IMG/VR virus record: IMGVR_UViG_3300042384_000211
Coordinates: 62,001-126,000 of that record
Strand: one strand, 5' to 3'
Length of the DNA stretch: 64,000 nt
DNA from: a virus
The position numbers and the translations under genes were made by a program. The notes beneath the pieces were generated by a model, which saw only the letters and a list, made by a program, of their open reading frames with translations, had not been told where the DNA came from and searched no databases. Within the stretch, counting starts at the first letter, position 1; every line of letters begins with the position of its first letter. This document shows positions 14,003 through 32,464 of the stretch, piece after piece.

Positions 14003-14316
14003 TAGATTTAGTAAACAAATATGGCTTTCCCATTGTTATGGCAGTGGGCATGGGATTCATCATCAAATTCGTATTCGAATGGGCCACAAAAGAGGTAAAA
14101 CCAGTCATTTCAGACGCAAATACTGTGCTTATTGCCTTGATTGATCGCATACGTATGTTAGACAACGATTTAATACGTTTGAATCAAAAAGTAAACACTG
14201 TGTTACATCTACGTGGTAAGACAATTGAATTTGAACGTGTAGAAGCCGAGAAAGAAATTAATAAAGCACATTTAAAGAATGAAGACGATAAAACTGCAAG
14301 TGGTGGCAGTGACTAA
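13993..14316 (+). CDS. Single-span membrane protein with coiled-coil tail, paralogue of 12239
   Basis: A 107-residue protein starting inside the end of the DUF4337-like gene (10-base overlap). One membrane helix (YGFPIVMAVGMGFIIKFVF) precedes ALIDRIRMLDNDLIRLNQKVNTVLHL, which matches the plan of 12239-12520 (GFP-hydrophobic-then ALDNRVK...EIIRIDTQV). The C-terminus is acidic and charged. It ends 4 bases into the convergent carboxypeptidase gene. Holin-like by shape only. Confidence 0.7.
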   Translation: MDVVDLVNKYGFPIVMAVGMGFIIKFVFEWATKEVKPVISDANTVLIALIDRIRMLDNDLIRLNQKVNTVLHLRGKTIEFERVEAEKEINKAHLKNEDDKTASGGSD

Positions 14317-15104
14317 TCAACATTAATATCGCTGTTGCTAACTGTTACAGCGATTTTTTGTGCTTCTGGAAAACGTGTACGAGTATTTTTACTACCAAGC
14401 AACACAATCACACGTTGTCCTAACTCAGTATCAAGTAGCATAACCACACAACCGCCACTTTCATTTATATAACCTGTTTTACTTACTCTTACATCATTAC
14501 TATTTCTAACCATTGGATTGGTGTTGCCAAATTGCCACCAACGACGTTTAACTTTGATACTTACATTAGGTTTACCACTAGCTTCGGTAATCTCTGTATA
14601 TTCGTTTGCGGCTAGGACTAATTTACCTAAATCACGGGCATTACTCACATTGCCTGCGTCTAATCCTGTAGGGTCGGCAAATGTGGTACTTGTCATGCCT
14701 AATACAAACGCAATATGATTCATTTCAGCTATACAACGAGCTAGACCACCCGGATAATTTGCGCCTAATGTATATGCGGCAAAGTTATCACTCTTGACAA
14801 TAGCAAGATCAATTAATTCACCACGAGTCAGCTGTTTAACGCTGCGCGGTAACCGAGTGTGATACTTATTAACCATTCTACGATCAAGTGTGATCATTTC
14901 ATCTAAGTTTTGGTTGGCATCTAACACCACCATCACTGTCATTAGTTTAGTAATGCTGGCAATAGGCTGTACACGATCAGCATTCTTTTCTAGTATAACT
15001 TCGCCTGTGTTATCTGCTACTAAAAAACTTTTAGCAGTAATAGGCTTTGCTACTACTGCGGTGCAGAATAGTAGCAGTATGATGAAACTACTTGCTCGTA
15101 GCAT
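14313..15104 (-). CDS. D-alanyl-D-alanine carboxypeptidase / endopeptidase (S11, PBP7-like)
   Basis: Start placed at ATG 15104 (MLRASSFIILLLFCTAVVA), which gives a clean signal peptide and has GGAA seven bases upstream. The 263-residue product has the three active-site motifs of S11 penicillin-binding proteins: SITK, SDN (KSDNFAAYTLGA) and KTG (SKTGYINESGG). These enzymes trim or cut peptidoglycan peptides in the periplasm. It overlaps the cyclase gene by 17 bases. Possible roles are lysis, wall remodelling or blocking superinfection. It faces the lipase operon. Confidence 0.9.
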   Translation of the reverse strand: MLRASSFIILLLFCTAVVAKPITAKSFLVADNTGEVILEKNADRVQPIASITKLMTVMVVLDANQNLDEMITLDRRMVNKYHTRLPRSVKQLTRGELIDLAIVKSDNFAAYTLGANYPGGLARCIAEMNHIAFVLGMTSTTFADPTGLDAGNVSNARDLGKLVLAANEYTEITEASGKPNVSIKVKRRWWQFGNTNPMVRNSNDVRVSKTGYINESGGCVVMLLDTELGQRVIVLLGSKNTRTRFPEAQKIAVTVSNSDINVD

Positions 15105-17100
15105 GATATGTTCCATCAAAATTTGCAGGAACACCCTGTTCCATACGCTCAATCATTAGTTCATAATAATGTTTAATATCAACATCATCGTTGTTGACTA
15201 ATTTTTTAGCCCATACAATAGCCTTGCCCCACGAACCTCGAGTATATTCTTTGCGATACTCTTCGTGCATATACAGATTAGTACGACCAACTGTATAAAT
15301 GTCAAGACCAATTGTTTTACCTTTAACAGCAATGTTATCTAGCCATACTACAGGAAATGCATCTTTACAATACTCAGCAGTTTTAGGACCAATGATTAGT
15401 AGGACACCATATGATTTAGTCTGTCCTTCTAGTCGAGCCGCTGTACTTACACTGTCACCTAATACGTCATAGCCAAACTTGCTCTTAGCACCAATGTTAC
15501 CAATTAAGGTTTCACCAGTGTTGACACCCGCACCCATACCAACTGGCGGACGACCACTGGCTACAAGTTCTACGTTAAAGTCCTCAATGGCTTTGATCAT
15601 TTCAAGTGCTGTCTGTACAGCAGTCTTGGCGTGATTAGCATCATCTAATGGAGCACCGTGTACGTGTAGTGACGCATCACCAATGAACTTAATCAGAGTA
15701 CCGTCGTTCTTAAGTACAGGAATACTCAGTGCTGTCATGTAGTCGTTCATGATCTGTGTGAGACCTTCTACATCATCTCCAAAACTTTCACCGAGTGTAG
15801 TAAAGCCACGTAGGTCAGTCATAACAATTGATAACTCTCGACGTTCACCACCTAACTTAATTAAGTCTGGATTCTTTTGCAAGCGTTCAACAATAGTAGG
15901 GTTAACATAACTACCAAATTGTTTCTTGATCTGTTGTTTCTGTAGGAACTCTGATACAAACTTAACGCCGTAAGCATGTAGCATAACTAGAACTATGCCT
16001 GCCGTTGGTACAATAGCATCAATTAAAAATTTGTAGTGCGAGAACAGGTACATACTAGCAGGAATTAAACTAGCAGTTAATACAATACCTACACCAAGTC
16101 CTACATAGACCCAACGGCTTAAGAACAAGATGATCAAACTGATAGCGATAAGTGCCAACAGTTCAGCACCAGGTGCCCAATCGGGACGTTCAATGTTTAC
16201 ATTGTTGGCTAATGTGCCAATTACAGCGGCCTGCATATCTTGAGGCCACACGTTACCTTTACTTGTTGCTACAGGATTATTAGTACCTGCGGCTGTAGTG
16301 CCCACAATAACAATATTGCCACCAAAATCGTCGGGCAAATCAACTGCCGATACTTGACGATTAGTCTGACTCCAGTCTACCCAGATACGTCCTTGACTGT
16401 CTGTACTGATAGGATTAAAGCCAGGAATACGCATCTTCTCTACACCTTGCGCATTTAACTTAACTTGGAAAGTATTAGTGTTGACTAAGACTCGCAGAAC
16501 TTCTAATGGTATACTAGGATATACATTATTGTCGTAGCCCACAAACAATGGCAGTCTACGGTTAACCCCGTCTATTTCTGGAAATGTGTTAGCAATACCA
16601 ACACCAACAGCATTCTGCTCTAAACTAGGAATGTTAGCAATGATGCCTGGATATTGTACAATAGTGTCAATGTACTCTGAGCCAATAACAGCACTACCTG
16701 GCTTACGTGGAATATTCTTAGTTGCTTGGCCGGGCATGTTGGTTAAGATAACAGGAAAGTCTGTTAATGCTTCAGCAAGGTAAGCATCACCACCTTGTCG
16801 ATCAGTCTCTGGCATCATAACAGTCCAAACAACCAGACCAGCATTATGACTATACAGGTCGCTGATCAGGTCTGCGTAAACATCACGTTTGAATGGCCAC
16901 TGTCCAAACTTGTCTAGAGTGGCTTCATCTATGTTTACAGTGTAGATATTATTTTCTACCGGGGGTTGACTGGTAATAAGCTGATCAAAATATCGTAATT
17001 TAACGCTTTCTACAAACGTAGGACCAGTAATAGTAATACCGACAATCAGTGCTAGGGTTAGGACCGCAGTCCAAGGTGAGAGTAAGATTTTTTTAAGCAT
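15088..17100 (-). CDS. CHASE2 sensor adenylate/guanylate cyclase (class III)
   Basis: A 670-residue membrane cyclase. An N-terminal anchor (WTAVLTLALIVGITITGP) is followed by a periplasmic CHASE2 domain (about 30-310), three membrane helices (about 320-395) and a class III catalytic domain (about 420-600). Metal Asp residues are in IVMTDLRGFT and FIGDASLHVHG. The usual Asn of the GDxVNxAAR motif is Ser (VLGDSVSTAARLE), while the Arg is kept, so activity may be reduced. It would make cAMP or cGMP in response to an extracytoplasmic signal. Expression seems late: a AATAAATA box sits exactly 5 bases before the ATG. Confidence 0.88.
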   Translation of the reverse strand: MLKKILLSPWTAVLTLALIVGITITGPTFVESVKLRYFDQLITSQPPVENNIYTVNIDEATLDKFGQWPFKRDVYADLISDLYSHNAGLVVWTVMMPETDRQGGDAYLAEALTDFPVILTNMPGQATKNIPRKPGSAVIGSEYIDTIVQYPGIIANIPSLEQNAVGVGIANTFPEIDGVNRRLPLFVGYDNNVYPSIPLEVLRVLVNTNTFQVKLNAQGVEKMRIPGFNPISTDSQGRIWVDWSQTNRQVSAVDLPDDFGGNIVIVGTTAAGTNNPVATSKGNVWPQDMQAAVIGTLANNVNIERPDWAPGAELLALIAISLIILFLSRWVYVGLGVGIVLTASLIPASMYLFSHYKFLIDAIVPTAGIVLVMLHAYGVKFVSEFLQKQQIKKQFGSYVNPTIVERLQKNPDLIKLGGERRELSIVMTDLRGFTTLGESFGDDVEGLTQIMNDYMTALSIPVLKNDGTLIKFIGDASLHVHGAPLDDANHAKTAVQTALEMIKAIEDFNVELVASGRPPVGMGAGVNTGETLIGNIGAKSKFGYDVLGDSVSTAARLEGQTKSYGVLLIIGPKTAEYCKDAFPVVWLDNIAVKGKTIGLDIYTVGRTNLYMHEEYRKEYTRGSWGKAIVWAKKLVNNDDVDIKHYYELMIERMEQGVPANFDGTYHATSK

Positions 17101-20371: not shown

Positions 20372-21799
20372 TTAGAAGTTGTACTGCAATTGCACACGTA
20401 GGGCATCTGCTTTAAAGTTAGCATAGTCTTGTTTTGCTATTGTAGTAGCAGTTGCTCCTGTTACTAAATTGCTACGGTTCATCATATGATAGTAAGCCAC
20501 AAGTTCAACTTCTGGAGCAATTTGCCATTCAGCTCCTATCTCCCAATCGTTAACCTTGTTCATCGGTGAGTTAGTTTCTGCTTTTGACGCACCATCAAAG
20601 TATTGCCATCTAACAAATGGAATTAAAGTACCATTAGTATCTAACACTTTGAAGTTGTCAATCTTATACATAGTTTGAATGTAGCCACCGTTTAAGTTAG
20701 TTTCTTTGATAATACCATCAGTGCTAGCAGTAGTATCTAAGCCAGGAGTTTTACCCCAGTTCCACTCACCTTGTAGACCTAATGGCTGTGGGTACATCAT
20801 AAAACTTACACCCACACGTTGATCTTTAAAACCAGTTGTGTTGCCTGCTTCTAATGTTGGTGTTTTAGTTGCGTAAACATTGTTGCCCATATTTTTTCTA
20901 TATGCACTACCTGTTCTTACATACTTGCCCGAGTAACCTTGTACACCAGCTTCGTAGATTTGACCGCTTTCGGTTTTCCATGGGTAAGTAGCACGTGCCA
21001 CAACGTGGTAGTTGTCATTACGATCTTGTTGGTTAGCACCTTGACCATTATAAACACCCAAGGCAACCATACCGTAGTTACCCGAATGTTTTAAACCGCC
21101 GTCTTGAATTTCTTTAAAGAGCTTTTGAACGTTGTCCGGTGTGTAGTAATAAAACGCACCCAAATCACGCTCGTCACGTACTGCACTATTAAATGCGTCA
21201 GCGCGATCAAGTGCTAGACGATTTTGTGAAGATTGTAAGTTTTCAAAGCCATATGGTACTTTACTTTGTCCAACACGAACGCGGTGTACTTTGTCTTTGG
21301 TCAAGTTAACATCACCATAAGCATCACGCAGTTGCGCTACGTTACCTGTGGTACCTGCTGTACTAGCAAAGTCAGGTTGAATATAATAATCCAAACGCTC
21401 ACCAGCTGAACCAGAAATGATCACACGTGCTCGACGGATAAGAAAGTTTTTGTCTTGATCAGCAAGAGAGTTTTTATTACCTACAGATCGATCTGACCAA
21501 AGGTTGACTCCTTCGTCACCACTAAGCATAGTAGTATTGCGCACTTGTAAATAGCCACGAATGTTCATTTTACTAGCCGCATGTACAGTGGTATCTTTTT
21601 CTTTTTTAACTGCGCCTATTTCACCAGTATGGCCTTTGTTTAGCAGTGCGCCTTCTTCTTCTGTAAGTACACCTTTCATAACCAGTGCATTAACAATGTC
21701 TGTGGTACTGTCTGCGTGAGCTTGTTTTAATCCTGCCATTGATAGTGCAAATGCTATTACTACATAATACATTATTGATTTAACTTGTTGTATGGTCAT
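20372..21799 (-). CDS. Outer-membrane porin, OprO/OprP type
   Basis: A 475-residue protein with a signal region (IAFALSMAGLKQAHA), a short N-terminal helical segment, and then alternating beta strands (MNIRGYLQVRNTT, FLIRRARVIISGSAGERLDYYIQPDFA) ending in LRVQLQYNF, a terminal aromatic suited to BAM insertion. The pattern is that of phosphate- or polyphosphate-selective porins OprO/OprP. It would increase anion uptake through the host outer membrane. It starts at ATG 21799 behind AAGGGGAATATTA. A phage porin could feed phosphate for DNA synthesis, but selectivity cannot be read here. Confidence 0.88.
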   Translation of the reverse strand: MTIQQVKSIMYYVVIAFALSMAGLKQAHADSTTDIVNALVMKGVLTEEEGALLNKGHTGEIGAVKKEKDTTVHAASKMNIRGYLQVRNTTMLSGDEGVNLWSDRSVGNKNSLADQDKNFLIRRARVIISGSAGERLDYYIQPDFASTAGTTGNVAQLRDAYGDVNLTKDKVHRVRVGQSKVPYGFENLQSSQNRLALDRADAFNSAVRDERDLGAFYYYTPDNVQKLFKEIQDGGLKHSGNYGMVALGVYNGQGANQQDRNDNYHVVARATYPWKTESGQIYEAGVQGYSGKYVRTGSAYRKNMGNNVYATKTPTLEAGNTTGFKDQRVGVSFMMYPQPLGLQGEWNWGKTPGLDTTASTDGIIKETNLNGGYIQTMYKIDNFKVLDTNGTLIPFVRWQYFDGASKAETNSPMNKVNDWEIGAEWQIAPEVELVAYYHMMNRSNLVTGATATTIAKQDYANFKADALRVQLQYNF

Positions 21800-21888: not shown

Positions 21889-21910
21889 AAAACCCGCCTC
21901 AGCGGGTTTA
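21889..21910 (-). terminator. Intrinsic terminator
   Basis: Stem AAACCCGC / GCGGGTTT with loop CTCA, followed on the minus strand by TTATTTTGG. It lies downstream of the small gene at 21925-22086. Confidence 0.88.
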
Positions 21911-22208: not shown

Positions 22209-23420
22209 TTAGAAGAATAAGATAGCACCTGCTGATACTGAACGTGATTTACCTTCTGCACCGTTTTGTGCTTCTGATTTAACGTCTGAGTATTCAGCAA
22301 CTAAGTTCACGTGTTTTGTGAGTGGGTGATAAGCACCAACAGTCCACATTTCGTTTTTCGAAACTAAAGCTGTAGCTGTTTCGCCACTGTTACGATCTAA
22401 TTTACTTTGACCATAACTTAGACCAAGTTTGGTAGCAGTAGGCAATGTGTATGTACCTTGCACGTAGCCGCCATTTGAATCACGACGTTTACCTGTAGCA
22501 TCAAAGCCGTCTAGTAATTGTAGTGAACGGCCAATACCTTTACCATCAAAGTAGTAAGCAGTTAACCCGTATGGACCAGCAGACAAGTTTGTACCAACGT
22601 CCCATGCATAAGCACGGCTGTCGGCGTTAGCACCAGATAGGCCTTCAACTTTTTGTGAAATAGCACTTGACCAAACTTTAGCAGCAATAGGGCCTGCTAG
22701 TGAGTAAGATACTTTACCTTCGAATGCTGGTTGAGCGCCGCCACGTCCTGTTGAAGTAGCTGAAGCAGCTTGTACACCTGCTGTTACTGCATTTAAGTCA
22801 GCTGTTTGAGCATTCCATGCTTGTGTTACACCAGCAGTGAATTGGAAGCCGTCGAAGTTTGGTGATGTGTAGGCAACTTGTGATTTCCAGTCAGCGTACA
22901 TATAACCAGTCCCAATACGACCTAACGTTGTTGTGTTACCAGCTAGTGCACCAGCGCCTGCACCAACACCCAGCAATGTCATGTCGTTAAGGATTGCATC
23001 AGAAGCGTAGATACCTAAATCTTTACCTAGTTTTACACTACCCCATGATTTATCACCGATGGTTAAGAATGCTTGACGATTTTCTTGGTTAGCTGTTTGA
23101 ATACCGGCTTGTGTTGTAGAAGCACCCGGATTGATAGCAATTGTAAAACCGATGTCTAGATCATTTTGACGTGACTTACCAGAAACTGATAATACGTTTG
23201 GTAATAAACCAGTTGTGATATTTGATTCGTTACGTTGACCTGTAGCATTAGGTCCACCTAGACCACCAACTACTGCACTGCCTGTGCCGCGTGTGTTTGT
23301 GTAGTAAGCGTTTACAACGCCACCGATGTCTAGTGTCCAATCACCAGCTGGAATTTGAATGCCAGCGTGAGCAGTTGAATACATACTTGCTAATAATGTT
23401 GCTAATAATAATTTCTTCAT
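22209..23420 (-). CDS. Gram-negative general porin (betaproteobacterial type)
   Basis: Start placed at ATG 23420 (MKKLLLATLLASMYSTAHA), giving a perfect signal peptide and an AAAGGAG site upstream. The earlier in-frame start has neither. The 403-residue product is a trimeric-porin type barrel: GDWTLDIGGVVNAYYTNTRG near the N-terminus, many 10-residue strands, and a C-terminal SAGAILFF with terminal Phe. Betaproteobacterial porins have this layout. It has its own strong promoter region and terminator, so high expression is likely. It may replace host porins that act as phage receptors or improve solute uptake. Confidence 0.9.
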   Translation of the reverse strand: MKKLLLATLLASMYSTAHAGIQIPAGDWTLDIGGVVNAYYTNTRGTGSAVVGGLGGPNATGQRNESNITTGLLPNVLSVSGKSRQNDLDIGFTIAINPGASTTQAGIQTANQENRQAFLTIGDKSWGSVKLGKDLGIYASDAILNDMTLLGVGAGAGALAGNTTTLGRIGTGYMYADWKSQVAYTSPNFDGFQFTAGVTQAWNAQTADLNAVTAGVQAASATSTGRGGAQPAFEGKVSYSLAGPIAAKVWSSAISQKVEGLSGANADSRAYAWDVGTNLSAGPYGLTAYYFDGKGIGRSLQLLDGFDATGKRRDSNGGYVQGTYTLPTATKLGLSYGQSKLDRNSGETATALVSKNEMWTVGAYHPLTKHVNLVAEYSDVKSEAQNGAEGKSRSVSAGAILFF

Positions 23421-23467
23421 TACGATACTTCTCCTTTTATTGGATAACACTAATATGTTATACTATC

Positions 23468-23496
23468 AGTGTATAGTATTTATAATGATGTGTCAA
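23468..23496 (-). promoter_or_regulatory. Dual promoter: sigma-70 boxes over a T4-type late box
   Basis: Minus strand TTGACA (23496-23491), 17 bases, TACACT (23473-23468). Inside the spacer is TATAAATA (23484-23477) followed by CTATACAC, a full late consensus. The porin gene could be read early and late. The gap from here to 23572 shows nothing else. Confidence 0.7.
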
Positions 23497-23571: not shown

Positions 23572-24927
23572 TTATTGCCCTTGTATTACAGTTATTGCCT
23601 GACAGGCACTAGCGCAACTACTATTAATACTGTAAAACTGTTGCACTGTACCTTGCTGATTTAAGTTTAAACTTCTAGCACCTGCTCCACTTAGAGTAAT
23701 GTCAGCCATGTGTGCAGCACTGCCCTGTTGAGTTATGTCTACTGTCTTATTACCGCCACTTACTGTCAAATCTAAGTGGTGATTGCCTGCGTCTTTCTGC
23801 AAGACCGAGACTGTATTAGCATTATTGTTAACTGTCGCGTATACACCCTTGGCGCCGCCTGTACTCTGCTGGATAACATCAACGTTATTATTGTTACCGA
23901 GAATATTTAAATCGGTATAGTTTGCAACAGTTGACGCTGTACCAGATTGGGTTATATCAACTGTATTTGAACTACCATTTCCGTAGTAGTCAACATAGTT
24001 ATTTCTTGTGCCGGTTTGATTTACCACAATGGTATTGTTGTTGCCTATCTGTTCAATGTACACCTGACTGTCCTGTGTTGTCCTATTGATAAAGGCCTGC
24101 ATAGAAGCTGATTTTTCAACGTCTATAGAAAAGGCGGCTGAACTACCGCCACAACATAAACTAGGAGCAACTGGTTCTGCAGGTGGAGCAGTAGACCCGG
24201 CATTAGGAGCCACAGCACCAAATGTCTGCCCATTCAATGCAGTAGTGCCCTGAATTTCATCTATAAACAACATCGGGCTTAGTGCTGTATCACCAAGATT
24301 AAATGAGGCAAATCCTAATATGTACGTACCAGTTTCTGGCACTGTAAAGCGAGCCTGTTGCCACCCAGTTGAACCATAAGAACCTGTAGCATAGTTACCT
24401 GTACCAGGATTAGTAAATCCCAGTAGAGCATAGCGTTGTTGACTGTTGTTTAAGTTAGGAGTAATACCACCATTGGTAGCATGTGTCAGAGTCATCATAC
24501 TGCCGTCATTAAAGGGTGTATAGTCCGTACTTAAATAATTCCAACCAAATGTATATGTGGTTCCTGCTTGTAGAGATATTTCTCGTTTGATCCAAGAAGC
24601 ATTAGTAGGAGTAGCATTACCACCACCTCCATTTTGACTTTGAAATGTTAAGTAGTTTCTTATGGCTGTATTTTCTACTGAAGTTAATCCTAACTGAGTA
24701 GTGGCCGTATTGAACTGCACACTGCCTGTGGGTTGAAGACGACCCATCTTTGTACCATAAGGATTCACTGTCCAATTCTTTCCGCCACCGGGACTGACAC
24801 TGGTAGTGCCCAATACTGTAACATCACCGCCGCTTGCGGTCCAGCCAGTTAAATTGCCAGACTCAAACCCCAACTGGGCCAGAGCATTATTACATATGAA
24901 TAACATAACAAGTGCAATTAATCTCAT
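23572..24927 (-). CDS. Secreted beta-rich domain fused to curlin repeats
   Basis: A 451-residue protein with a signal peptide (LIALVMLFICNNALAQ). Residues about 18-235 form a jelly-roll-like domain (LGFESGNLTGWTASGGDVTV, TYTFGWNYLSTDY, ...GTYILGFASFNLGD, FIDEIQG) like carbohydrate-binding or anchor domains. Residues about 285-451 hold curlin-type repeats (N-x-x-x-V/I-x-Q-x-G): VYIEQIGNNNTIVVNQTG, NTVDITQSG, KTVDITQQG. It would be exported by CsgG and co-assemble with the curlin at 26016, giving the fibre a binding head. Its ATG overlaps the fecR stop (ATGA). Confidence 0.8.
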   Translation of the reverse strand: MRLIALVMLFICNNALAQLGFESGNLTGWTASGGDVTVLGTTSVSPGGGKNWTVNPYGTKMGRLQPTGSVQFNTATTQLGLTSVENTAIRNYLTFQSQNGGGGNATPTNASWIKREISLQAGTTYTFGWNYLSTDYTPFNDGSMMTLTHATNGGITPNLNNSQQRYALLGFTNPGTGNYATGSYGSTGWQQARFTVPETGTYILGFASFNLGDTALSPMLFIDEIQGTTALNGQTFGAVAPNAGSTAPPAEPVAPSLCCGGSSAAFSIDVEKSASMQAFINRTTQDSQVYIEQIGNNNTIVVNQTGTRNNYVDYYGNGSSNTVDITQSGTASTVANYTDLNILGNNNNVDVIQQSTGGAKGVYATVNNNANTVSVLQKDAGNHHLDLTVSGGNKTVDITQQGSAAHMADITLSGAGARSLNLNQQGTVQQFYSINSSCASACQAITVIQGQ

Positions 24928-26012
24928 CTGCGTAACACTCCAGAATTCTGTTTAATACGCACTACATTACCACCCGGATCACCCGAACCAATTATAGCCG
25001 AAGCTATGTTGTCATCATGTGTAATTTCAATCGAAGTATTACTTTCGTAGCCCTGTGTTTTAACTTCAGCATAGTGATCTTCGCTTTGGCGGAACGCAAC
25101 GCCTCGACCACGTGCTTGAATAGTATCACCGTCGGGTCGTTCCCATCTCACACAGATATTAGTTGTTGGATTACAACCGGTTTTGCCGCTATCGAAACTG
25201 TAAGGTAGTACCACAGCCTTAGCGTCGGGTTCGTTGTCCATACGCTGTGACATTTGACTGACCTGTATAGCTTCCAATTCTTCTTGTTCTAGTTCGCGTT
25301 TACTTTTTGCCGCGTCTTTACTAGCTCGAATAATTTCTGGCGGGCGAGCAATAATAAGACTGTTGCCAATCTTACCTTCAACTGTATTAATAATAACCGG
25401 AGGACTAGGCATCATGTTAGCACTGGTTACATAGGTACCTTCAAATGCTTTGTCTAGGGTAACTATGCCAGCAAGTGTACTGACTTCAATCTTGCCTACT
25501 TTACATAAGTTTTCTTCTAGCTCGTATTCTTTGATCTTTTCGCCTTCTTTACAGCTAGGTACAAGAATTACTAGACTCTGCCCTGCTTCGTCTACAGTCA
25601 TGTTAAAGTCTGTACCTCGAACAGCAATTGATGCTGTGGGGGTTTTAATGTCTACTCGTTGTGGATTATTTTTAGCAATTTGTCCACTGGCATAACGTAC
25701 TGTGCCCATACCTACTTTAAGAGCTAGCTTGCCTGCATCGGATTTTTTAGGATCAAAAACAAAGTCGTCTATCATTAGTCGACTGTTTTCTGTTATTTTT
25801 ACTTTGGTGTCATCTTTAAATGTAATGTTGCTAACACAGCCGCCTGTAACATAGGTATCCATACTTTCTATGGCGGCACCTTTATTACCAGGCAGGGTCT
25901 GTTTAGCACGCTCTATTGAGCAAGCGGTACCTTTAGTATCGCTTACTGTCCCAATGCCCGCCCATGCGTTAGTAACTGCTACTAAGCATGCTATTGCAAG
26001 CAATAGTTTCAT
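24924..26012 (-). CDS. FecR-domain exported protein
   Basis: A 362-residue protein with a signal peptide (KLLLAIACLVAVTNAWAG) and a FecR domain, including MGTVRYASGQIA and VDIKTPTASIAVRGTDFNM, the family hallmark. The C-terminus ends in an isolated curlin-like strand (GNVVRIKQNSGVLRR). FecR domains in exported proteins often go with surface-polymer or secretion systems. It lies between two curlin genes, 3 bases after one and overlapping the other, so it is part of the amyloid operon. Possible role: periplasmic scaffold or chaperone for the fibre subunits. Confidence 0.8.
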   Translation of the reverse strand: MKLLLAIACLVAVTNAWAGIGTVSDTKGTACSIERAKQTLPGNKGAAIESMDTYVTGGCVSNITFKDDTKVKITENSRLMIDDFVFDPKKSDAGKLALKVGMGTVRYASGQIAKNNPQRVDIKTPTASIAVRGTDFNMTVDEAGQSLVILVPSCKEGEKIKEYELEENLCKVGKIEVSTLAGIVTLDKAFEGTYVTSANMMPSPPVIINTVEGKIGNSLIIARPPEIIRASKDAAKSKRELEQEELEAIQVSQMSQRMDNEPDAKAVVLPYSFDSGKTGCNPTTNICVRWERPDGDTIQARGRGVAFRQSEDHYAEVKTQGYESNTSIEITHDDNIASAIIGSGDPGGNVVRIKQNSGVLRR

Positions 26013-26015
26013 TGA

Positions 26016-26801
26016 CTATCTCACTATTGCTGATACTGGACTTACTATAGCGCCGCTACTCGAACGAACAGTAATTGTATTATTATTACCGGTTGTGCTG
26101 ATATTAAATGTAGTATCATTTGTACCTTGTTGCTGTGTAGTAATACTGTTAAAATCACCTGTAGTTGAGGTAACTAAACTATGACCAGCACTACCTGCAG
26201 CATCAATTTGTTGTATATTGAATATGTTGTTACTACCACTAATAGTGTTGGTAATATCAGCGTTGCTAGTAGTTACAGTAGTGGTCAATTGGTTACTACC
26301 ACCGTTAATAGTAGTTGATAATGCATTATCACTACCAACAATATTAGTAATCAACATATTAGTACTACCAGTAACAGTTTCAGTAACAGTATTACGCATA
26401 CCATTAGTGTTAGTATCACCGATTGTAAGTTTGCTTTGATTACCGTCACCAGTTAGAGTACTTGTAAAGCTATTATTTCCACCTTTGATGTTGTACTGTG
26501 ATTGGTTATCATCGCCGGTTTGTGTAATAGTAACACCGTTATTGCTACCGTTAATTGTAGCATAATTACTTGTACTAGGTGCTGTTACTGTTAATGTACT
26601 TAGACCTGTTGCGTCAACTGCTACACTACCAGCAATACCACCAACATCGTTTGTGCCGCCGACTTGTTCAATTGTAACAATATTGGTGCTACCTAATTGT
26701 TCAATGTAAACACGGTTAGGTCCTGTTGGACCTGCGGCCATCAATGATGTTGATAACGCTAAAAACATCATACTTACTGTTGCTTTTAAATTATATTTCA
26801 T
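26016..26801 (-). CDS. Curlin-repeat amyloid subunit (CsgA/CsgB-like)
   Basis: A 261-residue exported protein with a signal peptide (TVSMMFLALSTSLMA). The rest consists of repeats rich in Asn, Gln, Thr and Gly with the pattern N-x-x-x-I-x-Q-x-G (VYIEQLGSTNIVTIEQVGG, NNGVTITQTGDDNQSQ, NIFNIQQIDAAG, NNTITVRSS). These form stacked beta-turn units in functional amyloid. Downstream of csgG with an AAGGAGCACGACG site after a small palindrome (GGATTTTAAAAATCC). Later repeats lose Q and G positions, so some may be non-amyloid. Confidence 0.85.
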   Translation of the reverse strand: MKYNLKATVSMMFLALSTSLMAAGPTGPNRVYIEQLGSTNIVTIEQVGGTNDVGGIAGSVAVDATGLSTLTVTAPSTSNYATINGSNNGVTITQTGDDNQSQYNIKGGNNSFTSTLTGDGNQSKLTIGDTNTNGMRNTVTETVTGSTNMLITNIVGSDNALSTTINGGSNQLTTTVTTSNADITNTISGSNNIFNIQQIDAAGSAGHSLVTSTTGDFNSITTQQQGTNDTTFNISTTGNNNTITVRSSSGAIVSPVSAIVR

Positions 26802-26834
26802 CGTCGTGCTCCTTGGATTTTTAAAATCCTATTA

Positions 26835-27701
26835 TTATTTTATTGTTTCTAACAGCGGGTATGTTATACCATCTGTTTGTACTACAGGCTTAGGTTCTTC
26901 TTTGTAAGACCAATGCCCTTTACGAACCCCTTCTCGAATAGTAGCAATCACGGCCGCTTTTACTGCTAGGCTTGTTGCTTTATTGATACTTTCATTGATA
27001 CTCATACCAGTTTCAGCTTCGACGGCTTTTGTGCCTTCTTCAACAAACTTTAATACACCAAGTTTGTCCATGTAGCTTAATACTGTTTTAGTAACTGTTA
27101 CAGTTGTTAATACTTCACCTGTATTAACACTTACTGTTCTTAATGTAACCGTTACTGTATCACTTTGGTATTGCGTTTGTGCGCCAATACCTAGTATACG
27201 AACACCACTACCACCCGTAAGCAGGTTACTATCGTAGCCTGTTATACTTCCTTCAACAATAACACCAGCAAACATCATTGGTGGTAATGCCTTAGCTTCA
27301 CGACCTTGATATTGTTCACGCATCTGACGAATCATCTGACGTTCTTTAATCAAATTGTCTAACCCTACACGTTCTAACACAGTAAACCAACGTTGGTCGC
27401 CTACATCTTGTAGGGCGCCAATTAGGTATGCTTCTGCACCTTGCGATACTGCTGTACTAAAACTAGCCACGTTGGGTACATTTTTACGCTGTCCGGTTTT
27501 ATCTAAGAAACTATATACTGCTACCGGAACGGGGCCGCCGCTCGGAGGTAATACCTTATTCTCTGGTTTAGTAAAGTATGTTTCACGTACTATCTCAGGT
27601 TTATCAAATTGCTCACTTGTTATTTGTTCACGGATAGCACTACTTGTTGCACATCCTGTTAACAGTGCGGTTATTAATAAGGATATAAGTGTTTTATTCA
27701 T
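26835..27701 (-). CDS. csgG: Curli secretion channel lipoprotein CsgG
   Basis: A 288-residue CsgG homologue. Signal with lipobox (LLTGCATSS), then the diagnostic segments PVAVYSFLDKTGQRKNVPN, FSTAVSQGAEAYLIGAL, RWFTVLERVGLDNLIKERQ, GVIVEGSITGYDSNLLTGGSG, TQYQSDTVTVTLRTVSVNTGEVL and a Cys-free C-terminus. In E. coli CsgG forms a nonameric outer-membrane pore for curli subunits. All regions are present, so it should be functional. It follows csgF with a 9-base gap in one operon. Phage-encoded secretion pores of this type are not widely described. Confidence 0.92.
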   Translation of the reverse strand: MNKTLISLLITALLTGCATSSAIREQITSEQFDKPEIVRETYFTKPENKVLPPSGGPVPVAVYSFLDKTGQRKNVPNVASFSTAVSQGAEAYLIGALQDVGDQRWFTVLERVGLDNLIKERQMIRQMREQYQGREAKALPPMMFAGVIVEGSITGYDSNLLTGGSGVRILGIGAQTQYQSDTVTVTLRTVSVNTGEVLTTVTVTKTVLSYMDKLGVLKFVEEGTKAVEAETGMSINESINKATSLAVKAAVIATIREGVRKGHWSYKEEPKPVVQTDGITYPLLETIK

Positions 27702-27710
27702 GTATATTCC

Positions 27711-28208
27711 TTAAAAATAAAATGAGCCTGCAGGCACTTTCATTGTTGTAATATTATTAACGTTAGCTAGGTCCTGTATAGTGATGATAATTAACCCATT
27801 ATCATTACCTGCACCCAAACTCCATTGAATACTATTTCCGCCTAAGTTTGGAATATTACCGCATACTACACCCGCTGTAGTACAAGTAGCACCTTCTCCA
27901 AACATACTGTCAGTTAGTTGTTTAGCCAACTGACTATAAATTCTTGATTCCAGATTAGCAATAAAGCGTGCCTGCGGAGTATTAAGTGCAGCAGATTCTG
28001 CTTTATCTCGAATAGCTTCTGCGGCAGATTCGCGCTTGTCTTTTGCTTGATCCTCTAATTGTTTAATCGTAAGGGCATGTATACCAAATCCTTGTCCGTG
28101 AAATGCCGGACTATTAAAGGTGTGTACCATTTCTGCGGCCTGCGCAATATTAGCGCCAGCAGTTAGCACGACGACCATTAAAAGATTGTAGAACATAGAT
28201 TTAATCAT
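27711..28208 (-). CDS. csgF: Curli assembly factor CsgF
   Basis: A 165-residue exported protein. The signal (LLMVVVLTAGANIAQA) is followed by EMVHTFNSPAFHGQGFG, like the CsgF N-terminus that plugs the CsgG pore. The C-terminal part LESRIYSQLAKQLTDSMFGE and LIIITIQDLANVNN also matches the CsgF pattern. CsgF couples secretion to nucleation at the cell surface. Its ribosome site (AGGGG) is inside the 3' arm of an 11-bp hairpin, so translation may be regulated by RNA structure. No csgE was recognised in the window. Confidence 0.82.
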   Translation of the reverse strand: MIKSMFYNLLMVVVLTAGANIAQAAEMVHTFNSPAFHGQGFGIHALTIKQLEDQAKDKRESAAEAIRDKAESAALNTPQARFIANLESRIYSQLAKQLTDSMFGEGATCTTAGVVCGNIPNLGGNSIQWSLGAGNDNGLIIITIQDLANVNNITTMKVPAGSFYF

Positions 28209-28213
28209 GTGAA

Positions 28214-28243
28214 AGCCCCTGTTAGTATTATTTAACGGGGGCT
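28214..28243 (-). promoter_or_regulatory. Hairpin sequestering the csgF ribosome site
   Basis: An 11-bp stem (AGCCCC and GTTA arms, one G-T pair, 8-base loop) between the upstream gene and csgF. The AGGGG ribosome site is in the stem, 7 bases from the ATG. The loop side carries TTAAATAATACT, a weak late-type box. It could be a terminator for read-through or an attenuator. Confidence 0.65.
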
Positions 28244-28279
28244 CATTGATAAATTATAGTGTATTATTACTTAACCGTT

Positions 28280-28606: not shown

Positions 28607-29143
28607 TTATCTTTTCTCCGTAATGCCTGCTTGTTTGTACACATATTGTACTGCCTGTGCTTGACTTACTGCGTCTTCTAATGCATTGTGTAGGCCTGCT
28701 TTGTTCTTTTCACGTGGGTCACCTAGACTACTTAATAAGGTGCGACTGTCTCGAATCTGCCAAAACTGCCACGGACATGGTAAGCCCATCTGACGATATA
28801 GGTTCTCTAAAATAACAATGTCAAACACAGGACCCTGTGCCCAGATATTATCTGCCCCTACTATAAATCTATTTAATTCTTTTGAAAACTGTTCTAACGA
28901 GATACGATTACCTTCACCAAGTGCTTCTTCACGGACATCTTCTGCTTGATTACCCCACCAAGCAATAGTATTATCATCAACGTGACGCCCTAAGGTGATT
29001 TGCTCATCGATGTCAATACGGAAGTAGATACCGTCTACAATGTCATTTTGATTGTAAGGACTAAACTTGCAAGCACCAAATGTACAGATAGTAGCATCTG
29101 GGCGGGTTGACAAAGTTTCCAAATCGATCATTATATCGGACAT
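28607..29143 (-). CDS. DnaQ-type 3'-5' exonuclease (DexA-like)
   Basis: A 178-residue exonuclease. Exo I is MIDLETLSTRPDATI, Exo II is near AQGPVFDIVILENLYR, and Exo III has HNALEDAVSQAQAV, the RNase T/DnaQ order (DxE...D...HxxxD). Comparable to T4 DexA, a nuclease for host DNA or RNA 3' ends. It overlaps the cytidylyltransferase stop (TAATG). A free-standing enzyme without a polymerase domain. Confidence 0.87.
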   Translation of the reverse strand: MSDIMIDLETLSTRPDATICTFGACKFSPYNQNDIVDGIYFRIDIDEQITLGRHVDDNTIAWWGNQAEDVREEALGEGNRISLEQFSKELNRFIVGADNIWAQGPVFDIVILENLYRQMGLPCPWQFWQIRDSRTLLSSLGDPREKNKAGLHNALEDAVSQAQAVQYVYKQAGITEKR

Positions 29144-29622
29144 TATTTGTCACCTTTCAATAATTTTACAGTTTCAGCATGTGCTACACGTTTACGCAAA
29201 CTTGAACTAGAGAAACTGTGATCGCGACCATTAAACACTAGTTCAATGCCACGCACAAAACATTCTGCTTTTCCGGTAAACTCACTGTGCTCATATTCTA
29301 CACCTAGGATACGTACATCTAACGGCAATATTAATAACAGGTCAATTAGGTCTTGTTCTGTTTGATAGATTGCAACTTCATCTACATAACGACACGCGGC
29401 TAATTGGATCTGACGTTCAACAATACTTTGAATAGGTTTATTCTTAGTATCAGGACGGTCGATAGTTGGATCTGTTTGTAGGCCACAAATTAGGTAATCG
29501 CAGTGATTTTTAGCTTCACTTAGCATGGCTATATGCCCGGCGTGCAACATGTCAAAGGTACTAAAGGTTATGCCAATTTTTTTACCATCGGCTTTGAGTT
29601 CTTTGATTTTGTTAAAGATCAT
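29143..29622 (-). CDS. Cytidylyltransferase-family nucleotidyltransferase
   Basis: A 159-residue protein with the HxGH motif (TFDMLHAGHIAML), IVERQIQLAACRYVDEV, and a C-terminal SSSSLRKRV in place of ISTT. These are features of the glycerol-3-phosphate cytidylyltransferase/RfaE-C/PPAT superfamily, which activates alcohol phosphates or sugars with CTP or ATP. The substrate is unknown. Its start overlaps the clpS stop (ATGA). It could activate a lipid or sugar for the phage surface-sugar genes. Confidence 0.82.
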   Translation of the reverse strand: MIFNKIKELKADGKKIGITFSTFDMLHAGHIAMLSEAKNHCDYLICGLQTDPTIDRPDTKNKPIQSIVERQIQLAACRYVDEVAIYQTEQDLIDLLLILPLDVRILGVEYEHSEFTGKAECFVRGIELVFNGRDHSFSSSSLRKRVAHAETVKLLKGDK

Positions 29623-29924
29623 GCATCTGGCTCTAGTTTAATCACCAAAGGAAATCCATTAGTGCGAGCTAACTGTGTAACTTCTACACCTTTTTGTTCT
29701 GCCATTTCGTAGGGCAAAACTGCTACTGCGGCTGACCCTTCATCATGAATCTTTTTAGTTATTTCTGAAGCTGTGTCGGCAGAATGATTGAACACTACCA
29801 TAAGGCTTTCAATAACAAATTCCATAGTAGTTACATTATCGTTGAGATACAGCACTTTGAACATAGGAGGTTCTTTCACACCCATATTTACCTGTGGCTT
29901 TACTCTGGTTACGGCTTTGCCCAT
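29619..29924 (-). CDS. clpS: ClpS adaptor protein
   Basis: A 101-residue ClpS. PPMFKVLYLNDNVTTMEFVIESLMVVF matches the conserved core (YKVLLLNDDYTPMEFV), with TEITKKIHDEGSAAVAVLPYEMAEQK in the usual place. ClpS delivers N-degron substrates to ClpA/ClpP. The canonical Asp of the binding pocket appears as Asn in LNDN, which may change preference. With phage clpP at 265-885 it suggests control of targeted proteolysis. ATG coupled to hsp20 region, 63 bases downstream. Confidence 0.88.
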   Translation of the reverse strand: MGKAVTRVKPQVNMGVKEPPMFKVLYLNDNVTTMEFVIESLMVVFNHSADTASEITKKIHDEGSAAVAVLPYEMAEQKGVEVTQLARTNGFPLVIKLEPDA

Positions 29925-29987: not shown

Positions 29988-30452
29988 CTATTTTTCGAAT
30001 GAAATTGCAACCTTTTGTCTAACTGGCTCAGGTATAAATTGAACCAATTTAACTGTTAGGATGCCATTTTTAACGTGCGCTGAGTTGACTTCTACTCCTT
30101 CAGCAAGTTTGATACGTTTGACAAAATCACGAGCAGCGATACCACGATGAATGTACTCTACTGGATTTTCGCGTAATTCTTCAAATGCCTCTTCTAAGCT
30201 AACTTCACGGTTAGTGCCACGGATAACTAATTCACCGTTTTCGATTTCTACATCTAATTCGTCTTCAGCAAAACCAGCTACTGCTAGTTCAATAGCGTAG
30301 TTATTTTCGTTTAGTTTAATTAGATTAAACGGTGGGTAGCCACTGTCCTTACCACGTTGCTCTAAGTGTTGCAGTTGTGCAAACAAATCATCAAAGCCAA
30401 TAGCAAATTTATAGATGCTAGGGATATCAAGGGTTGTGTAAACTTGTTTCAT
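29988..30452 (-). CDS. Small heat-shock protein (Hsp20/IbpA)
   Basis: A 154-residue Hsp20. The alpha-crystallin domain is about residues 40-140: YPPFNLIKLNENNYAIELAVAGF, LVIRGTNREV and IAARDFVKRIKLAEGVEV, ending KNGILTVKLVQFIPE. Such proteins hold unfolded substrates for DnaK. Its ATG overlaps the dnaK stop (TAATG), so the two are one unit. The N-terminus (DIPSIYKFAIGFDDLFAQL) matches the IbpA type. Confidence 0.92.
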   Translation of the reverse strand: MKQVYTTLDIPSIYKFAIGFDDLFAQLQHLEQRGKDSGYPPFNLIKLNENNYAIELAVAGFAEDELDVEIENGELVIRGTNREVSLEEAFEELRENPVEYIHRGIAARDFVKRIKLAEGVEVNSAHVKNGILTVKLVQFIPEPVRQKVAISFEK

Positions 30453-32371
30453 TATTTACTCTCCTTGTTAACTTCTGTGAATTCAGCATCCACAACACCA
30501 TCTTGCGCATCCGTTGGTGTCTGCTGACCCGGCTCAACTGTTGCTGACTCTTGTGCTTGTTTAGCTTGGTAGATTGGTGCTACTGGTTCTGCTAATTTTA
30601 CCATTGCTGATTTAATTGCTTCTGCATCATCACCTTTAATGGCTTCTTCTACAGCGGCAATAGCATCATTGATTGCAGTATGTTGTTCAGCAGTTACCGA
30701 GTCACCAGCTTCTTCTACAGTTTTCTTAACATCGTGAACCTGTGCTTCAGCTTGGTTACGTGCATCAACTAATTCACGCAATTTTTTATCTGCATCGGCA
30801 TTAACTTCTGCATCCTGTACCATTGCATCAATTTCTTCTTCAGTTAAACCTGAGTTAGCTTTGATAGTAATCTTGTTTTCTTTGCCAGTTGCTTTATCTT
30901 TAGCACTTACTTTTAAGATACCATTAGCATCAATGTCAAGAGTAATTTCAATTTGTGGTTGACCACGACGTTGCGGTTCGATACCTTCTAAGTTGAACTG
31001 GCCAAGTACTTTATTGTCTTTGACAAACTCACGCTCACCTTGTGCTACCATAACAGTAACAGCTGGTTGATTGTCCTCTGCTGTAGAGAATGTTTGGCTT
31101 GCTTTGGTAGGAATGGTTGTATTTTTCTTAATCAGCTTGGTCATAATACCACCCATTGTTTCAATACCCAATGATAGTGGAGTTACGTCTAGTAACAATA
31201 CATCAGTTTTATCGCCGCCTAGTACAGCACCTTGAATAGCCGCACCGACTGCTACAGCTTCATCTGGGTTAACGTCTTTACGTGGAGCCTTACCAAAGAA
31301 TGCTTCAACAGCTTCTTGTACTTTAGGCATACGTGTTTGACCACCGACTAAGATAACATCGTCAATGTCACTAATGCTAATACCAGAGTCTTTAACAGCA
31401 ATCTTACATGGATCAATTGAACGTTTGATTAAATCTTCAACTAGACCTTCAAACTTGCTACGTGTTAGTTTAACTGATAAGTGTTTAGGACCAGTAGCAT
31501 CAGCAGTAATGTATGGTAAGTTTACATCTGTCTGTGTTGAACTTGACAATTCAATCTTAGCCTTCTCAGCTGATTCTTTAAGACGTTGTAAGGCCAGCAT
31601 GTCTTGTTTTAAGTCAATGCCAGATTCTTTCTTAAACTCGTCTACCAAGTATTCCATAATACGTTGGTCAAAGTCTTCACCGCCTAAGAATGTATCACCA
31701 TTAGTTGACAATACTTCAAATTGTTTTTCACCGTCGATGTCACTGATTTCAATAATACTAATATCAAATGTACCACCACCTAGGTCATACACAGCAATCT
31801 TACGGTCTTTTTTATCACCTTTATCGCAACCAAATGCTAGTGCAGCCGCAGTTGGTTCGTTGATAATACGCAATACTTCTAAGCCTGCAATACGACCTGC
31901 ATCTTTAGTTGCTTGACGTTGGCTGTCATTGAAGTAAGCAGGTACTGTAATAACTGCCTGCGTTACACTGTAACCCAAATAGTCTTCTGCTGTTAATTTC
32001 ATTTTGCGCAGAACTTCTGCTGAAATTTGTGGAGGTGCTAGTTTGTCACCGTTGACTTCGACCCATGCATCACCATTTTCGTTTTTAACGATTTTGTATG
32101 GCATTAGGTCAATGTCTTTTTGTACTGCTGGCTCGTCAAACTTACGACCAATTAGTCGTTTGCTGGCGTAGATTGTGTTTTTTGGATTAGTAACTGCTTG
32201 GCGTTTAGCACTAGCCCCCACAATGATTTCATCGCCGTAGGCAACGATACTTGGTGTAGTACGAGCACCTTCGTTATTTTCAATTACACGTGATTTATTG
32301 TTTTCAAGAATTGCGACGCAACTATTTGTAGTTCCAAGGTCTATGCCCAGAACAGGTGATTTTCTTGTCAT
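30452..32371 (-). CDS. dnaK: Hsp70 chaperone DnaK
   Basis: Start placed at ATG 32371 ([17 protein letters not shown]) behind AAAGGAGAAATAT. The longer reading adds a hydrophobic extension with no ribosome site. The 639-residue product has all DnaK signatures: [56 protein letters not shown], the substrate-binding domain ([17 protein letters not shown]), and a C-terminal lid with a short acidic tail. No phage grpE or dnaJ seen here, so host co-chaperones are expected. It forms an operon with hsp20. A GATAAATA box lies about 70 bases upstream. Full-length DnaK is rare in phages. Confidence 0.96.
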
Positions 32372-32464
32372 ATATTTCTCCTTTAAGTTAAGCAAGAATA
32401 AATTAATTACGAACCCTATTATAGGCATTCGTATTACTATTTATCATTAAAGTATAACACTTCT

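Follow-up and report, generated by a model that had tools for sequence, protein, structure and literature searches.

An intact curli-type secretion operon in a phage, with a putative late-promoter hairpin and an exchangeable fusion domain

Introduction

What use would a phage have for a curli operon? The question is raised by a stretch of 64,000 nucleotides (hereafter the window), comprising bases 62001-126000 of the 140,799-base IMG/VR virus record IMGVR_UViG_3300042384_000211; all coordinates below are window positions. An initial annotation placed here a curli-type amyloid secretion operon of five genes, for which it proposed roles in cell aggregation, masking of receptors or surface adhesion. 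We suggest that the locus is a phage curli (i.e. type VIII secretion) module that would act late, displaying a glycan-binding amyloid on the cell, probably for adhesion or aggregation. We give this reading about an even chance of being right.

Phages have been known to carry curli genes since 2020-2022, with no consensus on their function. Pelagimyophages were reported to have CsgF/CsgG by Zaragoza-Solas et al. (2020), who suggested 'sibling capture' (PMC7029224). Buchholz et al. (2022) found CsgGF in phage Melnitz and judged the fibre genes to be absent (PMC9004378), while Wittmers et al. (2022) reported the module in complete form, comprising CsgA/B, FecR and a cyclase, from pelagiphage podo- and myoviruses (PMC9599517). 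Since complete modules have been published, and the isolates HTVC008M and Melnitz carry the operon, the annotation was wrong to regard a complete phage curli operon as undescribed.

The operon

The operon consists of five intact open reading frames (ORFs), whose positions, strand and domains are those of the initial annotation (Pfam profiles; E, expectation value).

27711..28208, minus strand: CsgF, 165 amino acids, exported (PF10614 E 6e-10; phrog_35372 E 5e-32)
26835..27701, minus strand: CsgG outer-membrane secretion pore, a 288-amino-acid lipoprotein with lipobox LLTGC (PF03783 E 8e-49)
26016..26801, minus strand: curlin-repeat protein 1, 261 amino acids (Curlin_rpt E 0.023 alone)
24924..26012, minus strand: exported FecR-domain protein, 362 amino acids (PF04773 E 1e-10)
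23572..24927, minus strand: curlin-repeat protein 2, a fusion of 451 amino acids (Curlin_rpt E 3e-4, above cut-off)

The genes are separated by gaps of 9, 33 and 3 nt, followed by a 4-nt overlap of repeat protein 2 with the FecR protein. Hidden Markov model searches thus find CsgG, CsgF and the curlin repeats of the fusion, and a profile built from CsgG relatives matches solved CsgG structures (e.g. 3x2r, E 6e-70). Repeat protein 1 is the weakest single domain assignment of the five and rests on family matches, 29 of the 38 aligned members of its family matching Curlin_rpt; it is the probable fibre subunit. The FecR domain was found in all 30 family members of the FecR protein.

Compared with the related contigs L003, L005 and L006, the ratio of nonsynonymous to synonymous substitution rates (dN/dS) is 0.06-0.14 for CsgF, CsgG, repeat protein 1 and the FecR protein (0.06-0.09 for CsgF, ~0.09-0.10 for repeat protein 1), and by this measure all four are under purifying selection. 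Repeat protein 2 was left out of the scoring because its N-terminus is swapped (see below). The open frames, the domain matches and, where scored, the low dN/dS all indicate that CsgG, CsgF and both repeat proteins are intact, and close relatives have kept both the frames and the repeats.

Distribution in viruses and cells

Scanning IMG/VR viral contigs yielded 83 with a CsgG relative, of which 80 were kept. Gene order was counted in those non-identical loci, 34 in number, whose contigs extend 8.5 kb or more past CsgG. All 34 have CsgF, repeat protein 1 and the FecR protein, 33 have repeat protein 2 and 25 a cyclase; the full five-gene order is kept in 33. The isolates HTVC008M and Melnitz have the identical order CsgF-CsgG-repeat-FecR-repeat-adenylate cyclase. 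Gene content, relatives and selection together bear out the description of this locus as an intact curli-type secretion operon borne by a phage.

In a CsgG tree the window sequence falls within an all-viral clade of 44 rows (support of 100% in the Shimodaira-Hasegawa-like approximate likelihood ratio test, SH-aLRT), and 61 bacterial curli sequences lie across a 100%-supported branch from it. We note that the CsgG ORFs of L007, L012, L034, L043 and other contigs run to 380-443 amino acids before the next gene starts, exceeding Escherichia coli CsgG (277 amino acids) by ~100-165.

FecR and cyclase genes were not found beside CsgG in bona fide bacterial curli loci, among 80 loci kept from cellular genomes. 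A set of contigs from metagenome-assembled genomes does carry one or other beside CsgG, and most of these look like phage contigs in bins. Two Caulobacteraceae contigs from metagenome-assembled genomes (L089:9519-15539 and L090) have the order CsgF-CsgG-repeat-repeat-FecR-CHASE2-cyclase. The flanks in L089 are metabolic (amidohydrolase, acyl-CoA dehydrogenase), so this locus may lie on a bacterial chromosome as a relative of the phage module.

The record as a phage

The record encodes NrdA, NrdB, a UvsW-type helicase, a gp44-type clamp loader, a DnaB-type helicase, an endolysin and a virion protein, together with a DNA ligase. Neither terminase (PF03237) nor gp23 (PF07068) is matched anywhere in it, indicating that the record is partial; among related contigs gp23 is present in three (353, 329 and 280 kb) and terminase is matched in five, one match being weak. 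The operon had been described as flanked by phage genes. This holds for the record as a whole and fails for the immediate flanks, which are cell-like: two porins on one side and, beyond a 108-amino-acid ORF and an exonuclease, a nucleotidyltransferase, ClpS, Hsp20 and DnaK on the other.

Such flanks would be expected if the operon were made up of passenger genes without function, or were an assembly chimera. The same stretch is found on independent contigs, which rules out a chimera: L002 shares 20,864 bases with the window at 100% identity, and a large part of the stretch aligns to L003, L005 and L006, for the most part at 84-91%. The low dN/dS, the conserved gene order and the similar GC content of operon and window (0.406 vs 0.388) also speak against passengers, and we regard this explanation as highly improbable. 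With its T4-like replication genes, endolysin and virion protein, and a layout repeated on independent contigs, the record is that of a large T4-like phage.

A modular second repeat protein

An AlphaFold2 model of repeat protein 2 comprises an N-terminal beta sandwich resembling carbohydrate-binding modules (CBM), a disordered linker and C-terminal curlin repeats. The repeats form 14 regular strands at residues 287-449, with a predicted local distance difference test (pLDDT) score mostly of 80-93. Foldseek searches with the N-terminal domain returned CBM61, CBM16, CBM4 and gingipain adhesin domains, with template modelling scores (TM-scores) by target of 0.40-0.57.

Among 40 repeat-2 proteins Curlin_rpt was matched in 23, an F5/8-type-C domain in 18 and PA14 in five (L003, L005, L012, L024 and HTVC008M). 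The window and L003 are 92% identical in CsgG, 93% in repeat protein 1, 90% in the FecR protein and 69% in the C-terminus of repeat protein 2, and yet their repeat-2 N-termini have no detectable homology. Conversely, L010 and L051 are 82% identical in the N-terminal segment and just 62% in repeat protein 1. On these comparisons the N-termini (CBM-like, PA14, F5/8-type-C or other) are swapped between close relatives, while the curlin C-terminus is kept. Fused binding domains on the second repeat protein are not described in the available text of PMC7029224, PMC9004378 or PMC9599517, and neither 'lectin' nor 'adhesin' occurs in the main text of the last. Of the roles that have been proposed, fused domains of carbohydrate-binding type would favour adhesion or aggregation.

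A 1929-amino-acid ORF with 19 curlin-like pattern matches lies two ORFs past repeat protein 2 in L058.

A late-promoter core within a hairpin

The first gene of the operon is preceded by a potential RNA structure.

28213..28244, minus strand: hairpin directly upstream of CsgF (RNA folding)

TAAATA, the core of T4-type late promoters, lies at 28229-28234, partly in the inner stem and partly in the loop. The GGGG of the ribosome-binding site AGGGG is paired in the 3′ arm. The stretch 28196-28275 folds with -17.1 kcal/mol (z -3.4), and none of 200 shuffled sequences folded as well. In T4, genes e and I-TevI are controlled by such a pairing of a late promoter with a hairpin over the ribosome-binding site (PMC3014915, PMC2988022).

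In 41 of 51 loci TAAATA occurs within the 70 nt that precede CsgF, compared with 161 of 854 control ORFs (19%). It is nearly confined to this position, being found before CsgG in 0/54, repeat protein 1 in 1/51, the FecR protein in 0/50 and repeat protein 2 in 2/45, a pattern that would fit one transcription unit starting at CsgF. Hairpins with z below -2 precede 49% of CsgF starts and 11% and 10% of controls (rank tests, p about 2e-8 and 6e-9, both optimistic values). The longer motif TATAAATA is at chance across the window (nine found, nine expected), and therefore the argument for a promoter rests on position across relatives. Sigma-70 promoters, when scanned for, were also at chance level, and the stem changes in L003-L006 include mismatches, without support from covariation by eye.

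The operon thus seems to be switched on late in infection. Late expression would argue against early exclusion of superinfecting phages or early uptake of nutrients and would favour a role as infection draws to a close. This bears on the proposal, made for pelagiphage curli in PMC9599517, that fibres coat the infected cell, mask or block receptors and exclude competing phages. Two porins and a lipopolysaccharide-type enzyme lie near the operon, so that several genes here could alter the cell surface. Exclusion would be most useful early, whereas both the promoter motif and the hairpin suggest that expression is late, and a coat does not need swapped domains of glycan-binding type. We consider masking rather unlikely.

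The same signals, and the carbohydrate-binding-type domains, would also suit repeat proteins that act after lysis by sticking to debris or polymers and keeping progeny or debris together. By contrast, CsgF and a lipoprotein pore imply secretion localized to the surface of living cells. We take action after lysis to be unlikely, although nothing here separates it from adhesion of living cells.

CsgE and the FecR protein

No match to CsgE (PF10627) was found in the record or in seven viral records related to it, whereas the profile did match E. coli and two bacterial controls; the gene is thus missing, as the initial annotation had said. Lack of CsgE leaves nothing to close the pore, and the pore itself could be the function: an open outer-membrane channel for nutrient uptake, or a pore that times lysis, the latter put forward for Melnitz. 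Proposals of this type were made in PMC9004378 and PMC7029224. The adjoining porins fit a theme of uptake, and late expression would suit lysis timing. The earlier proposals were built on repeat genes that were missing or unrecognized, whereas here repeat proteins 1 and 2 are nearly always present, repeat protein 1 is under purifying selection, and the GenBank record of Melnitz (MZ577097) itself annotates two repeat proteins. Function as a pore alone is therefore quite unlikely.

The FecR protein has an N-terminal signal peptide and lacks an anti-sigma part, as read from the sequence, so that the classical role of FecR as a regulator looks unlikely. Its predicted structure contains helices and, at the C-terminus, five consecutive strands, and the FecR region resembles the periplasmic domains of anti-sigma proteins (6ovk/4m0h). 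Scored against the curlin repeat, 10% of the C-terminal tails of FecR proteins reach at least 5 bits, compared with 0.9% of shuffles; the tail of the window protein gives no score, with pLDDT about 60-69 in the model. The strands resemble curlin repeats weakly, and we offer this as a suggestion only.

Role of the module

The late adhesive display that we favour could operate as follows. RNA reading through early in infection would be silent because the hairpin hides the ribosome-binding site of CsgF. The late RNA polymerase would start inside the hairpin, giving an open message. Both repeat proteins would then be secreted through the CsgG/CsgF pore, the first to form a fibre and the second to serve as an adhesin anchored in the amyloid, with a swappable N-terminal domain that binds glycan; the FecR protein may remain periplasmic or become part of the fibre. 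Towards the end of infection this would leave a sticky cell or lysate, holding neighbouring hosts close or attaching to surfaces.

Several observations weigh against this. Melnitz-infected cultures were seen not to clump in cytograms or transmission electron microscopy (PMC9004378), in a study that did not recognize the repeat genes of Melnitz. There is no strong hairpin before CsgF in either isolate, HTVC008M having TAAATA at -11 only, and the ribosome-binding site is mostly paired in just 19 of the 51 loci. The p-values for enrichment are optimistic because the loci compared are relatives and not independent. The N-terminal fold of repeat protein 2 is predicted with low-to-moderate confidence (pLDDT about 55-89, lower in loops). 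Finally, without CsgE secretion may be poor or ungated.

If the proposal is correct, host cells become sticky near the end of infection, in a manner specified by the phage. With slightly less confidence, we suggest that T4-like and jumbo phages might use late-switched amyloid display, with a conserved curlin anchor bearing carbohydrate-binding modules (CBM-like, PA14, F5/8-type-C and others) that close relatives swap like the tips of tail fibres, each phage thereby choosing what its dying host adheres to. The swapped domains and the late-promoter hairpin provide concrete handles on the function of phage curli.

Neighbouring genes and the likely host

The genes around the operon include the following.

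28607..29143, minus strand: exonuclease upstream of the operon, outside the module (Rv2179c-like E 4e-38; phrog_255 exonuclease E 7e-51)
22209..23450, minus strand: Gram-negative porin Porin_4, after the operon (PF13609 E 6e-21)
20372..21799, minus strand: phosphate-selective-type porin Porin_O_P (PF07396 E 1e-38)
15088..17100, minus strand: CHASE2-adenylate/guanylate cyclase (CHASE2 E 1e-37; cyclase E 1e-17; phrog_35576 E 3e-210)
14313..15152, minus strand: D-Ala-D-Ala carboxypeptidase/endopeptidase-type protein (Peptidase_S11 E 3e-40)

The cyclase is the usual final gene of the module in phages, following repeat protein 2 in most relatives. That of the window belongs to the same family and lies ~6.5 kb downstream of the operon, behind the porins and other genes. 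The carboxypeptidase-type gene adjoins the cyclase in several relatives and is near the module in 7 of the 34 loci. Porins are near it in just three, and the two in the window have no PHROG match. Each porin has its own upstream motif, TATAAATA (23477-23484) for Porin_4 and TAAATA at -27 for Porin_O_P, and a terminator-like hairpin lies between the two genes (21890-21909).

In the podovirus form of the module a histidine kinase is reported to precede CsgF (PMC9599517). None precedes it in the window, where the two ORFs upstream are the exonuclease and the 108-amino-acid ORF, which matches no family above cut-off. The isolates HTVC008M and Melnitz, both myoviruses, have no annotated kinase before CsgF, and therefore a histidine kinase does not define the myovirus form.

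Comparison of the window Porin_4 with 399 genomes from the order that includes Massilia gave best matches at 68%, 64% and 57-59%, several genomes of 1.3 Mb being among them, and hexulose-6-phosphate synthase scored above its curated cut-off in all 12 best-matching genomes and in 0 of 18 others tested. This points to a methylotroph of the Methylophilaceae kind as the probable host, as for Melnitz. DnaK was uninformative as a host marker, many genomes of the order matching at about 70-76%.

The record carries a set of chaperone and protease genes (DnaK, Hsp20, ClpS, a ClpA-type AAA protein, a DnaJ-like protein and GroEL; window 30452-32428, 29988-30452 and 29619-29924; L082:4471-7701; L084:16716-18631), and a GroES-like ORF was recognized by eye. 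A 534-amino-acid ORF at L083:18163-19767 resembles, again by eye, a flavin-dependent tryptophan halogenase.

Comparison with known systems

The pelagiphage module (PMC9599517; HTVC008M; PMC7029224) shares with the window the order CsgF, CsgG, repeat, FecR, repeat, an adenylate cyclase and the absence of CsgE. It differs in that the cyclase of the window is displaced from the module end. CsgG of the window is 47% identical to that of HTVC008M over 72% of the query, the N-terminus of repeat protein 2 is CBM-like in place of PA14, and the strong hairpin before the first gene is not found in HTVC008M. Melnitz (PMC9004378, MZ577097) has the six genes in equal order and a methylotroph host, to which the window porin likewise points. 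Its CsgG is 44% identical to that of the window, and its second repeat protein appears by eye to be all repeats with no obvious extra domain, unlike that of the window.

Bacterial curli of the csgBAC/csgDEFG type have in common with the window the CsgG/CsgF secretion pore and curlin repeats; the window lacks CsgE, contains FecR, and has its CsgG on the other side of the fully supported branch. T4 gene e and I-TevI provide the parallel for a late-promoter core inside a hairpin that hides the ribosome-binding site (PMC3014915, PMC2988022). The hairpin of the window, with its putative promoter known from sequence, differs in heading a multi-gene secretion operon. Set against the available text of the pelagiphage and Melnitz curli literature, the swapped fused domain and the candidate late-promoter core with its hairpin seem to be the new features of this module.

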